A stretch of 51,524 nt of DNA, from assembly GCF_001044255.1 (NCBI RefSeq), contig NZ_JYNX01000057.1, positions 55,676 to 107,199 on the forward strand, read 5' to 3'. The notes below the pieces were generated by a model. That model was not told where the DNA came from. It saw only the letters and a program-made list of their open reading frames with translations, and did no database searches. The stretch is from Mycolicibacterium chubuense (GTDB lineage Bacteria; Actinomycetota; Actinomycetes; Mycobacteriales; Mycobacteriaceae). Of this stretch, positions 21,646 through 44,575 are shown piece by piece. A program made the position numbers and the translations under genes. The stretch's first letter is position 1; every line of letters starts with the position of its first letter.

Positions 21646-22431
21646 GTGTCCGAGGTGACCGTGATGACCACGCCCGTCCCGGTGGTGGAGACGAAACTGC
21701 AGGCCTGGGAGCGGCGCGCCGAGTGGCCGCTGGCGCTCGCGGCGGTGCTGTTCCTCGCCGCCTACAGCGTCGAGGTACTCGCGACGCCCGCCGGTGCGGC
21801 CGCCGTCGCGGTCCGAATCGTCAGCATCGCGTCATGGTTGATGTTCGTCGTCGACTACGCCGTCCGTCTCTGTCTCGCCGACCAGCGGTGGCGGTGGTTC
21901 TCCCGTCACCTGTTCGATCTGGCGATCGTCGCCCTGCCCGTGCTGCGGCACCTGCGGCTGCTGCGCCTGGTCACGTTGATCACGGTGCTCAACCGCGCCG
22001 TCGGGCACGCCATCCGCGGTCGCGTGGTGATGTACACGGTCGGCGGCGCGGTGCTGCTGGTCTACGTCGCGTCGCTCGCCGTCCTGCAGAACGAGCGCGG
22101 CTACCCCGGCGCCCAGATCACCCACTTCGGCGAGGCGCTGTGGTGGGCGATGACGACGATCACCACGGTCGGCTACGGCGACCTGACGCCGGTGAGTCCC
22201 ACCGGGCGGGTGATCGCCGTGCTGCTGATGATCGGCGGCATCAGCCTGCTGGGCTCGATCACCGCGACGCTCGCCTCGTGGATCGTGCAGCGCGTGGCCG
22301 ACGAGGACACCGCGGCGCGCGTCGTGACCACCGAGCACATCGACGTCCTGGTGACCGAGATCCAGGAGCTGCGGGCCGAGGTGCGGCGCCTGGGCGGCAG
22401 CTCCCGGCCCCGCGACGGGCTGGACGGGTAA
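21646..22431 (+). CDS. Voltage-gated-like potassium channel
   Basis: 261 residues. The selectivity filter TTVGYGDL lies in the pore loop [15 protein letters not shown], flanked by two strong spans. Four hydrophobic segments precede it, and the segment [18 protein letters not shown] has regularly spaced Arg like a voltage-sensor S4. A short coiled-coil-like tail ([16 protein letters not shown]) may tetramerise the channel. No RCK/TrkA-N domain is attached. It conducts K+ across the plasma membrane. It is divergent from the ABC exporter operon and lies 49 bp upstream of prrA on the same strand. Confidence 0.88.
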
Positions 22432-22480
22432 CGGGCCAGGGTCCCCCAGCTCGAGGCCCGCATCAGGCAAGATTGCGGGC

Positions 22481-23182
22481 ATGGACAGTGCAGTGGGCTC
22501 GCCCCGGGTGCTCGTGGTCGACGACGATCCCGACGTGCTCGCCTCCCTCGAGCGCGGCCTGCGGTTGTCCGGTTTCGACGTGTTCACCGCCGTGGACGGC
22601 GCCGAGGCCCTGCGCAGCGCCACCGAGACGCGCCCCGATGCGATCGTGCTCGACATCAACATGCCGGTGCTCGACGGCGTGTCCGTGGTGACCGCTCTGC
22701 GCGCGATGGACAACGACGTTCCGGTCTGTGTGCTGTCGGCGCGGTCGTCGGTCGACGACCGCGTCGCGGGGCTGGAGGCCGGCGCGGACGATTACCTGGT
22801 CAAGCCGTTCGTGCTCGCCGAGCTGGTGGCCCGGGTGAAGGCGCTGCTGCGGCGGCGCGGATCCACGGCGACGTTCTCGTCGGAGACCATCACCGTCGGC
22901 CCGCTCGAGGTCGACATCCCGGGCCGGCGCGCCCGCGTCGACGGGGTCGACGTCGACCTGACCAAGCGCGAGTTCGATCTGCTGGCGGTGCTCGCCGAAC
23001 ACAAGACCGCGGTGCTGTCCCGCGCGCAGCTGCTCGAGCTGGTCTGGGGCTACGACTTCGCCGCCGACACCAACGTCGTCGACGTCTTCATCGGCTACCT
23101 GCGGCGCAAGCTGGAGGCCAACGGCGCGCCGCGCCTGCTGCACACGGTCCGCGGCGTCGGATTCGTCCTGCGTCAGCAGTGA
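22481..23182 (+). CDS. prrA: Two-component response regulator PrrA
   Basis: 233 residues. Receiver domain 1-125 with acidic pocket VVDDD, phospho-acceptor Asp58 (IVLDINMP), Thr/Ser switch (LSARSS) and Lys108 (YLVKPF). The OmpR-type winged helix occupies about 140-230 ([31 protein letters not shown]). The sequence is nearly identical to M. tuberculosis PrrA (Rv0903c) as I recall it. PrrA is an essential mycobacterial regulator linked to early intracellular growth and energy metabolism. It is followed by three tandem micro-ORF repeats and then prrB; its TGA stop overlaps the first micro-ORF ATG (TGATG). Confidence 0.96.
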
Positions 23183-23274
23183 TGAGCGCTTGCGCGAAGA
23201 ACCGGCGGTAGTGATGAGCGCTTGCGCGAAGAACCGGCGGTAGTGATGAGCGCTTGCGCGAAGAACCGGCAGCA
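23179..23274 (+). repeat. Three tandem 32-bp repeats between prrA and prrB
   Basis: Units at 23179-23210, 23211-23242 and 23243-23274. The first two are identical and the third differs at two positions near its end. The unit begins GTGATGAGCGCTTGCGCGAA. The arrangement, with stop and start codons overlapping at the junctions, recalls MIRU elements of mycobacteria such as the one in senX3-regX3, but the unit is shorter and I do not claim it is the same family. Confidence 0.95.
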
Positions 23275-23278
23275 GTAG
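23182..23278 (+). other. Relay of three micro-ORFs linking prrA to prrB
   Basis: Each repeat unit encodes a complete tiny ORF: 23182-23211 and 23214-23243 (MSACAKNRR) and 23246-23278 ([10 protein letters not shown]). The prrA stop overlaps the first ATG by 1 nt, successive ORFs are 2 nt apart (TAG-TG-ATG), and the last stop is 1 nt from the prrB GTG. Terminating ribosomes could reinitiate stepwise and carry translation to prrB. Because each unit has its own start and stop, copy-number change would not break the chain. Translation is inferred, not shown. Confidence 0.5.
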
Positions 23279-23279
23279 C

Positions 23280-24623
23280 GTGATCGCCCTGTCCCGCATC
23301 TTCCGGCGCACACCGTCGCTGCGCACGCGGGTCGCGTTCGCCACCGCCATCGCCGCGGCGATCGTCGTCGGCATCGTCGGCACCGTCGTATGGGTCGGCA
23401 TCACCCAGGACCGCAAGGAACGCCTCGACCGCCGTCTCGACGAGGCGGCCGGCTTCGCGATCCCGTTCCTGCCGCGCGGCCTCGACGAGATCCCGCCCTC
23501 GCCCAACGACCAGGACGCCGTGATCACCGTGCGCCGCGGCGACGGCCAGGTGACGTCCAACAGCAAGGTCGTGCTGCCCGAGCTGGAGCCCGGCTACGCC
23601 GACACCTACGTCGACGGGGTGCGCTACCGGGTACGCACGGTGCTGCTGTCCACCCCGGAGCCGATGTCCGTCGCCGTCGGCGCCACCTACGACGCGACGA
23701 TCACCGACACCAACAACCTGCACCGGCGGGTGCTGATCATCTGCACGCTGGCCGTGGGTGCGGCCACGTTCGGCGGCTGGCTGCTCGCGGCGTTCGCGGT
23801 GCGCCCGTTCAAACGGCTGGCCCAGCAGACCCGGCAGATCGACGCCGGCGACGAGGCCCCCGACATCGACATCCGCGGCGCCACCGAGGCCGTCGAGATC
23901 GCCGACGCGATCAAGGGCCTCGTCGGGCGCGTCTGGGAGGAGCAGGGCCGGACCAAGGCGGCGCTGGCGTCGGCACGCGACTTCGCGTCGGTGTCGGCGC
24001 ACGAGCTGCGCACCCCGCTGACCGCGATGCGCACCAACCTCGAGGTGCTCGCGACGTTGGATCTCGGCGAGGAGCAGCGCAAGGAGGTCGTCGGCGACGT
24101 GATCCGCACCCAGACCCGCATCGAGGCGACACTCGGCGCGCTGGAGCGGCTCGCCCAAGGGGAACTGTCCACCGAGGACGACCACGTGCCCGTCGACATC
24201 ACCGAGCTGCTCGACCGGGCCGCCCACGACGCGATGCGCGTCTACCCCGACCTCGAGGTGTCCCTGGTGCCGGCGCCGACGGTGATCATCGTCGGGCTGC
24301 CCGCCGGCCTGCGCCTGGCGGTCGACAACGCGATCGCCAATGCGGTCAAACACGGCGGCGCCACCCGTGTGCAGCTCTCGGCGGTCAGCTCGCGCGCCGG
24401 GGTCGAGATCGCGATCGACGACGACGGCGTCGGGGTGCCCGAGGAGGAGCGCCGGGTCGTGTTCGAGCGGTTCTCCCGCGGCTCCACGGCGTCACACTCG
24501 GGATCGGGGTTGGGGCTGGCCCTGGTGGCGCAGCAGGCCGAATTGCACGGCGGCACCGCGTCATTGGAGGCGAGCCCACTCGGCGGGGCGCGGCTGCTGC
24601 TGCGCCTGCCCGGCCCGCACTAA
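23280..24623 (+). CDS. prrB: Two-component sensor histidine kinase PrrB
   Basis: 447 residues from GTG 23280. Two membrane spans (about 20-42 and 151-174) bracket an extracytoplasmic sensor of about 105 residues. A HAMP linker (about 175-228) and the phospho-acceptor His241 (SAHELRTPLTAM) follow. The ATPase domain carries the N-box DNAIANAVKHGG, DDDGVGVPEEE and SGSGLGLALV. It phosphorylates PrrA. The start is 1 nt after the last micro-ORF stop, and only a GTG is available, so expression may depend on reinitiation from the upstream chain. The gene ends at a strong palindrome shared with the convergent FKBP gene. Confidence 0.95.
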   Translation: MIALSRIFRRTPSLRTRVAFATAIAAAIVVGIVGTVVWVGITQDRKERLDRRLDEAAGFAIPFLPRGLDEIPPSPNDQDAVITVRRGDGQVTSNSKVVLPELEPGYADTYVDGVRYRVRTVLLSTPEPMSVAVGATYDATITDTNNLHRRVLIICTLAVGAATFGGWLLAAFAVRPFKRLAQQTRQIDAGDEAPDIDIRGATEAVEIADAIKGLVGRVWEEQGRTKAALASARDFASVSAHELRTPLTAMRTNLEVLATLDLGEEQRKEVVGDVIRTQTRIEATLGALERLAQGELSTEDDHVPVDITELLDRAAHDAMRVYPDLEVSLVPAPTVIIVGLPAGLRLAVDNAIANAVKHGGATRVQLSAVSSRAGVEIAIDDDGVGVPEEERRVVFERFSRGSTASHSGSGLGLALVAQQAELHGGTASLEASPLGGARLLLRLPGPH

Positions 24624-24627
24624 TCTC

Positions 24628-24690
24628 CGCCGAAACTGTATTCCACGCGCTGTTTCCGGCGTTCTGGCCGCGCGGAATACAGTTTCGGCG
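24628..24690. terminator. Palindromic element, copy 2 (bidirectional terminator candidate)
   Basis: Arms 24628-24649 and 24669-24690 match in 21 of 22 positions (CGCCGAAACTGTATTCC core), with a 19-bp loop. It fills the 72-bp gap between the convergent prrB and FKBP genes. The same arm sequence occurs at 587-648 in the same kind of position. Confidence 0.7.
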
Positions 24691-43607: not shown

Positions 43608-44575
43608 GCCTGGTCGGTGCGTTCCACCAGGTCCAGCACGCCGTCGTCGAACGGGTCGTAGAGGGGCGAACCGGCCCCTTGCGGCGCCGGGGTGTCGGAG
43701 TGCGCGCCGCATCCGTATTCGGCGTCGACGACGTGTCCGTCGGCGGCGTATTCGTTGGCGCACACACCGAACATCACGCCCAGCGCTCCGCCGAGCGGCA
43801 GGTAGAAGCCGCAGTCGCGGCACATCCGGCGCGTCGCGCGCGCCATCGCCGAACCCGGCCCGTGGTCACCGTCGTGCCAGCGTTGCGCGGCGTCGTTGCG
43901 GCCCCACAGGCTCAGCACCCGGCGCCGGCCCAACCCGACCTCGACCGCCACCTCGTCGATCTGCGGATCGCCGGTGGCCATGAAGCCGGGCACGAGCCGC
44001 GGATCGTCGGCCGGGGGCGCCAGCAGGTCGCCGGGACTCAGATCGCCGGCCCGGACGCGCTCCTCCCAGGGCACCCACTTGGGCGCCAGCAGCGCGGTAG
44101 GTCCGGGAACCAGCACCACCTCGCTGATCGTGGCGTGTGTCGCGCCCGGCGATGCCGCCACCACGACCGCCCATTGCCATCCGCGGTAGCCGGGCATCTG
44201 CGCGAGGAACCGGTGGGTGGCCGATGCGGGGCCTTCGAATCCGGCGCCCAGGTACTCGCCGACGGTCTCCTCGCCGCTGAACTCCGCGATCGCCGCGCGG
44301 GCGACGTCGACCGCGCCGCGCAGGATCTCCTCCACCTCGGCGGACATCGGCTCGGGCTCGATCACCTCGGGCTCGGTCACCTCGGGTTCGGTCACCTCGG
44401 GTTCGGTCACCTCGGGTTCGGTCGGCGCAGCCTCGGAATCCGTCGCCTCCGGCTCAGGCTCGGACGTCGGCTCGGCCTCGGGCGCCGCCGCCTCGGCGTC
44501 AGGCGCCGTCGGCTCGGGCACGAGCCCGGCCTCGGGTTCGGCCTCGTGCGGAGGGGGTTCGGTCACGCTGTCCAT
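43604..44575 (-). CDS. DUF3027 family protein
   Basis: 323 residues. The first 80 residues are an acidic, low-complexity Pro-Glu-Ala region with four or more tandem EPEVT pentapeptides; the folded part (about 82-323) is DUF3027, as in Rv0877. A C-X2-C-like pair (MCRDCGFYLPLGG) and the later CGAHSDT may bind metal. Function unknown. Longer than the M. tuberculosis version because of the acidic N-terminal extension. Divergent from the MFS-like gene (Rv0876c-type), the same arrangement as in M. tuberculosis. Confidence 0.87.
   Translation of the reverse strand: MDSVTEPPPHEAEPEAGLVPEPTAPDAEAAAPEAEPTSEPEPEATDSEAAPTEPEVTEPEVTEPEVTEPEVIEPEPMSAEVEEILRGAVDVARAAIAEFSGEETVGEYLGAGFEGPASATHRFLAQMPGYRGWQWAVVVAASPGATHATISEVVLVPGPTALLAPKWVPWEERVRAGDLSPGDLLAPPADDPRLVPGFMATGDPQIDEVAVEVGLGRRRVLSLWGRNDAAQRWHDGDHGPGSAMARATRRMCRDCGFYLPLGGALGVMFGVCANEYAADGHVVDAEYGCGAHSDTPAPQGAGSPLYDPFDDGVLDLVERTDQA
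44356..44425. repeat. 15-bp tandem repeats in the DUF3027 gene
   Basis: About four and a half units starting at 44356, 44371, 44386, 44401 and 44416 (consensus GTTCGGTCACCTCGG); two are identical. The period of 15 preserves the reading frame and encodes the EPEVT repeats. A replication-slippage hotspot likely to vary between strains. Confidence 0.85.

Follow-up and report, generated by a model that had tools for sequence, protein, structure and literature searches.

What is known about short repeats that lie between bacterial genes? The REP/RAYT elements of gammaproteobacteria are short hairpin repeats at gene boundaries, and in IS200/IS605 elements guide recognition proceeds by pairing between flank and element. 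Leader-peptide attenuators and upstream-ORF couplers place a short ORF directly 5′ of a gene start; in cysteine-responsive leader peptides the Cys codons are conserved. The mycobacterial repeats called MIRUs have been described in slow growers. According to PMC12548453, MIRUs, or mycobacterial interspersed repetitive units (Supply et al. 1997, as cited there), are apparently mobile, insert at start codons and contain an internal ORF that is coupled. PMC4213456 confines the senX3-regX3 MIRUs to M. leprae and the M. tuberculosis complex and gives MIRU lengths of 77 and 53 bp, and PMC2734929 gives a unit length of 40–100 bp.

The prrA-prrB junction examined here lies in a 51,524-nucleotide stretch of the Mycolicibacterium chubuense genome (the window), and a three-unit array, 23181–23276, occupies the whole interval from the prrA stop to the prrB start (Table 1). 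Tandem Repeats Finder, run on the window, reports a period of 32, 2.9 copies and a 100% match at 23178–23270. The sequence-only reading had described three 32-bp repeats between prrA and prrB, each with a micro-ORF, a prrA stop that overlaps the first ATG, gaps of 2 nt between the ORFs and a last TAG 1 nt 5′ of the prrB GTG. Each of these details is borne out: the prrA stop TGA (23180–23182) shares its final A, at 23182, with the first ATG, the 2-nt gaps can be read directly, and a single base separates the TAG at 23276–23278 from the GTG at 23280. Micro-ORF 2 has the same sequence as micro-ORF 1. In unit 3 the core is unchanged and the tail is ACCGGCAGCAGT in place of ACCGGCGGTAGT; these two substitutions remove the in-unit TAG, so the third ORF runs on to the TAG before prrB. 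The core, GATGAGCGCTTGCGCGAAGA, has three exact occurrences in the window. With up to three mismatches there are four matches, a number reached in 0 of 100 shuffles (mean 0.27), and the fourth (50193, three mismatches) looks like chance. A consensus scan of 23100–23350 found no promoter or terminator. Just 3′ of prrB, at 24628–24690, lies a 22-nt inverted repeat (95% complementary, 19-nt spacer) that is either terminator-like or a palindromic repeat, and a separate 15-bp tandem repeat of 4.9 copies lies at 44351–44423.

Table 1. Features of the prrA-prrB junction (window coordinates)
Feature	Coordinates	Strand	Description
prrA, response regulator	22481..23182	+	best PDB match 1ys6 PrrA, E 4e-136
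Unit 1, 32 bp	23181..23212	+	hairpin core 23181-23200; micro-ORF 23182-23211, MSACAKNRR then stop
Unit 2, 32 bp, same sequence as unit 1	23213..23244	+	micro-ORF 23214-23243
Unit 3, 32 bp, core identical	23245..23276	+	micro-ORF 23246-23278, 10 residues
prrB, sensor kinase	23280..24623	+	best PDB match 1ys3 PrrB, E 1e-80

We consider it likely that the array is made of a dispersed, MIRU-like mobile repeat of 32 bp that forms a hairpin, here called U32, and that this repeat was amplified at the prrA/prrB junction to three tandem copies. The unit is widely scattered. The M. chubuense genome contains 26 matches to a 21-nt core pattern at up to three mismatches, with none for the reversed-pattern control, and 18 arrays were read there, four of them tandem. 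Within the genus the core is found at up to one mismatch in 102 of 148 genomes, in as many as 82 copies, and every reversed control gave zero. Other genera of the family lack it in all 20 genomes sampled; in a sample of the order it occurs in 51 of 298 genomes, which belong to the same genus and to a few other families, and in a sample of the phylum in 5 of 296, three from the same genus and two with a single one-mismatch match. Merging of near-identical arrays left 144 of 151, of which 49 have at least two copies. The array at L177 (G189:C82) has 19 units spaced at exactly 32 bp, and eight loci from another family of the order (L163, L165–L170 and L172) have units of 75–93 bp in which the U32 core is joined to a second, mostly GAGCG-rich stretch. 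Literature searches, whose coverage of subscription papers was thin, turned up no published description of the unit.

What is conserved in the unit? The consensus of the 144 non-redundant arrays is N2N1-GAYGA-GCG-CUNG-CGC-GARGA-N1′N2′ followed by a tail, and the bases that flank the core covary. Positions −1 and +21 form a Watson-Crick pair in 132 of 144 arrays and a T-G pair in 10 more (shuffle mean 68.3; largest value in 5000 shuffles, 86), and positions −2 and +22 form a Watson-Crick pair in 105 of 144 (mean 75.5; largest 91). These counts are of copies rather than of independent events and are inflated by subfamilies. A third pair further out is avoided, with 9 observed against 27.2. Neither covarying pair is part of the 20-nt core, and +21 was included only in the 21-nt pattern used on the M. 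chubuense genome, where mismatches were allowed. In unit 1 of the window the flanking pairs are T23180-A23201 and G23179-C23202. Among 252 unique copies the inner Y-R pair is T-A in 228, C-G in 17 and T-C in 7; 250 copies have a GCG stem and the other 2 GCC/GGC, with a variable loop; since the loci were found by core matching, this invariance is partly built in. When a pattern that permits all four Y/R combinations was searched in two genomes, only T..A and C..G were seen by eye among the places listed. What is established about tandem GA motifs suggests that GAYGA and GARGA may pair through sheared G·A pairs.

The encoded peptide varies instead. The loop is CTTG in 172 of the 252 copies, which makes the fourth codon of the micro-ORF TGC, and CTCG in 65, which makes it CGC; GGC and AGC also occur. 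A further 17 copies have the form GACGA..GAGGA, in which the ATG is lost. The micro-peptide is thus not conserved, and a function of the peptide itself is rejected in view of the variable fourth codon and the copies without ATG; a cysteine-responsive leader peptide is rejected on the same codon counts. The paired flanks of the hairpin, which the sequence-only reading did not mention, are more sharply conserved than the micro-peptide. Shuffled sequences fold with similar energies, so the hairpin rests on covariation: z values for RNA are +0.75 for the window unit, −1.40 for the second unit, +0.69 for MIRU and +0.64 for the long form of the unit, and for DNA +0.33 for the window unit, −0.63 for the second unit, −0.27 for MIRU and −0.31 for the window unit reversed. 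The proposed pairs are nonetheless present in the minimum-energy fold of the window unit as RNA. We also considered CUGAUGA...GAA, which we take to be a hammerhead-like motif, and rejected the resemblance on three counts: C precedes UGAUGA in only 17 of 49 T-class arrays, the C-class arrays lack that U, and no Rfam match was found in the searches described below.

At tight junctions the base before the first copy is part of the upstream gene, and the outer pair (Watson-Crick or T-G) forms in 142 of 144 first copies as against 41 of 55 inner copies (p 3e-7). For example, all four separate arrays at the L131 junction fit the pairing, two after GC that carry GC and two after GGT that carry AC. 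At L150 the filled arrays are mixed; that of L353 fits, that of L366 obeys the first pair but not the second, and that of L364 sets C with C. The simplest reading is that the pairing is chosen, or created, as the unit inserts, and the difference between first and inner copies fits pairing set at insertion better than it fits continuing selection. This contrast bears on the strongest competing account, in which the unit is a cis-acting RNA hairpin, active in processing, stability or protein binding, that is kept at gene boundaries for its effect on expression, with mobility secondary. The covarying base pairs speak for it, and 124 of the 144 arrays do lie on the same strand as both neighboring genes; we nevertheless judge this account unlikely, given the loss of the outer pair in inner copies, the sporadic occupancy of orthologous sites described below, and Rfam 15, which returned no match at the gathering score for window positions 22000–24500 and only two unrelated sub-threshold matches for six loci searched at E up to 5.

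Because the unit starts with GATGA, the upstream gene stops at a TGA that overlaps the unit's ATG; because its length is 2 modulo 3, the short ORF runs to the next ATGA and stops there, or, in the case of prrB, stops at the TAG that closely precedes the start. With this layout and length, the chain of stops and starts continues to the downstream gene whatever the number of units. Gene frames were placed by a codon-position GC heuristic rather than by annotation. The upstream stop lies at −1 in 39 of the 124 co-oriented arrays and at +2, which is the same phase, in another 39; in all, 94 of 124 share that phase (p 6e-22). At 60 of 75 tight junctions the last micro-ORF ends within −12..+4 of the next start, as compared with 11 and 9 for the other frames (75 of 78 had a placeable downstream start), and in 38 of the 75 it ends exactly as ATGA or GTGA at that start. 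The relay architecture proposed from the prrA-prrB sequence is accordingly a statistical property of the whole family and not a coincidence of one site. Similarly, the periods of junction arrays are 32 in 28 cases, 33 in 4 and 30 in 1, while those of other arrays are 33 in 7, 30 in 6, 32 in 4, and 29 and 35 in one each, an array with two periods being counted under both; the division between 2-modulo-3 and 0-modulo-3 periods differs by context (p 2e-4). Frame-breaking spacings of 31 bp occur twice in G142:C39 and once in G027:C3, and arrays of the ATG-less GACGA form lie at tight junctions in 2 of 9 cases, a small sample. Periods of 30 or 33 bp are seen at L185, L204, L246 and other arrays away from tight junctions; if those arrays lie inside genes, such periods would be in-frame additions. 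We infer from this architecture that ribosomes may translate the relay of micro-ORFs.

Is the array a property of prrA-prrB? The sequence-only reading had suggested comparing copy number at this junction across relatives, and the comparison gave 0 to 4 units: 78 of 80 prrB loci were readable (L106 and L108 lack the prrA end), and the unit is present in 14 and absent from 64. The filled junctions include degenerate units and a rarer form lengthened by an additional GGGGG-rich hairpin, about 56 nt as counted by eye at L055. On a gene tree of 54 rows, comprising the window and 53 of the 78 relatives (25, including the filled L042, were left out for a missing anchor), the 14 filled rows require 12 occupancy changes, 11 of them forced by well-supported branches. 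Units have thus been gained or lost many times at this junction. Shuffled labels on the same tree need 12.5 changes on average, and the filled junctions are not clustered. The nearest relative, M. chlorophenolicum DSM 43826 (L033), is 97.6–98.5% identical and has one unit where the window has three, a difference that rests on one pair of draft genomes. In G082 (L135) a unit sits, by eye, at a different base of apparently the same gap.

Other sites behave likewise. For the L131 junction 30 loci were fetched, of which 16 aligned close to the end of the query; among the 12 counted, which share the downstream gene, 4 are filled, the query among them, and 5 of the 8 unfilled show, by eye, plain GATGA or GGTGA. 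Of 30 loci fetched for L150, 28 were available and 27 aligned; 3 of these 27 are filled, including the query's own array, and 22 of 24 unfilled loci show DTGA at the site by eye. The overlaps so read in unfilled orthologues of the two sites are GATGA, GGTGA, GTTGA or AGTGA. A target-site duplication was considered as well and set aside; a 7-mer signal at unit length 32 (z 4.5), with exact 7-mers in 3 of 78 as against 0.2 expected, argues for one weakly.

The same comparison speaks to the idea, raised in the sequence-only reading, that the copy number of the relay tunes the PrrB:PrrA ratio and was selected for that. Copy number does vary among relatives, and PMC2734929 reports that at another mycobacterial locus repeat length 5′ of fpg1 goes with expression. 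We regard a regulator specific to prrAB as very unlikely all the same, for most relatives do without the unit, the filled junctions are scattered over the tree as labels shuffled at random would be, and the same genome holds the unit in 18 arrays. A tuning device peculiar to prrAB was rejected in view of the mostly empty orthologous junctions and the dispersal of the unit, and tuning of PrrA:PrrB by the array is unsupported. Tandem repeats between two-component genes, we caution, need not be tuning devices.

What, then, could move the unit? We see only a slight chance that a Y1 transposase (RAYT/IS200-type) mobilizes it in the manner of a REP element: the short hairpin, the gene-boundary site and a pairing of flank with element reminiscent of IS200/IS605 would suit such an enzyme, but Y1_Tnp (PF01797) is found in 26 of 148 genus genomes as compared with 102 for the unit, and the M. 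chubuense genome (G000) has no PF01797 match, which speaks against a Y1 transposase as the mobilizer there; a mobilizing gene did not come to light. Carriage by phage or plasmid was likewise rejected, as the exact core was not found in viral contigs and PLSDB plasmids and INPHARED phages gave no core match. Scarcely credible, finally, is an ordinary minisatellite born of replication slippage at this single site; although the tandem copies are perfect and inner copies have lost target pairing, as slippage copies would, slippage can explain amplification but not dispersal, and the unit's spread through its own genome and most of the genus refutes it as a full account.

We propose instead that the array goes back to a single insertion of the mobile unit where prrA stops and prrB starts, followed by tandem amplification. 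The hairpin may be the form acted on by a putative mobilizing enzyme, and the micro-ORF would make insertions tolerable rather than regulate prrB. What comparison of genomes contributes to this proposal is dispersal, recurrent change of occupancy, a difference in copy number, covarying flanks, pairing with target bases, and the bias of frame and period. The mycobacteria that host U32 are probably fast growers, in which it would be the counterpart of MIRU.

How does U32 compare with the known systems? Like REP/RAYT elements, it is a short hairpin repeat at gene boundaries; unlike them, it overlaps coding ends and has a start and a stop codon, in a genome with no Y1 match. As in leader-peptide attenuators and upstream-ORF couplers, its micro-ORF lies directly 5′ of a gene start, but U32 is dispersed, occurs in tandem, encodes a non-conserved peptide and sits between genes of an operon.

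The likeness to MIRU is closer. Both are dispersed and tandem, lie at stop-start overlaps within operons and have an internal ORF coupled to the next gene, which for U32 is a matter of architecture only. The resemblance to MIRUs drawn in the sequence-only reading thus holds, with insertion at DTGA overlaps, tandem copies, changes of copy number and an internal ORF all found; so does its remark that the unit is much shorter, at 32 bp as compared with 53 or 77, and below the range of 40–100 bp given in PMC2734929. The core sequences differ too. The MIRU core used as query has no match at up to one mismatch in the M. chubuense genome and is found in 68 of 148 genus genomes. Of these 148, 24 have both cores, 78 only U32, 44 only MIRU and 2 neither, a near-complementarity (Fisher p 1e-17, Spearman −0.75) that is uncorrected for the relatedness of the genomes and that probably follows the divide between slow and fast growers. 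In both elements a GGGGG-rich module, GGGGGYACCNCCCGCTTGCGGGGGACG, can stand in for an internal AGCG; it does so in U32 at L042, L055, L302 and L314 and in MIRU at L288, L301, L307 and L311. The module also occurs alone and is found at up to one mismatch in 84 of 148 genus genomes. That it is common to U32 and MIRU hints at common descent, and its net length, counted by eye, is 24, which may account for the difference between MIRU forms of 77 and 53 bp. Some MIRU copies show, by eye, paired outer changes of their own (GCGCC/GGCGC, ACGCC/GGCGT and GCACC/GGTGC). The fetched MIRU arrays have periods of 46–55, which do not keep to 2 modulo 3 as U32 does; the frame rule can thus be claimed for U32 alone.

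U32 is therefore not a MIRU by sequence or length, and it works like one. We raise, tentatively and with more doubt than belief, the possibility that U32 and MIRU belong, as two branches, to a single superfamily of mobile hairpins. In these the two bases that follow the hairpin would pair with the two target bases that precede it, and a built-in start-stop ORF would confine insertion to stop-start overlaps. If true, this would be a guided, self-coupling insertion system in bacteria. MIRU-like elements would be more widely spread than has been described: mycobacterial genomes without the MIRU core would have a near-complementary element of their own, which also reaches into a few other families of the order. 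The search for whatever moves MIRUs would gain a new handle, namely a sharply defined hairpin, a rule for its pairing with the target, and many genomes to compare, some that have the unit and some that lack it.
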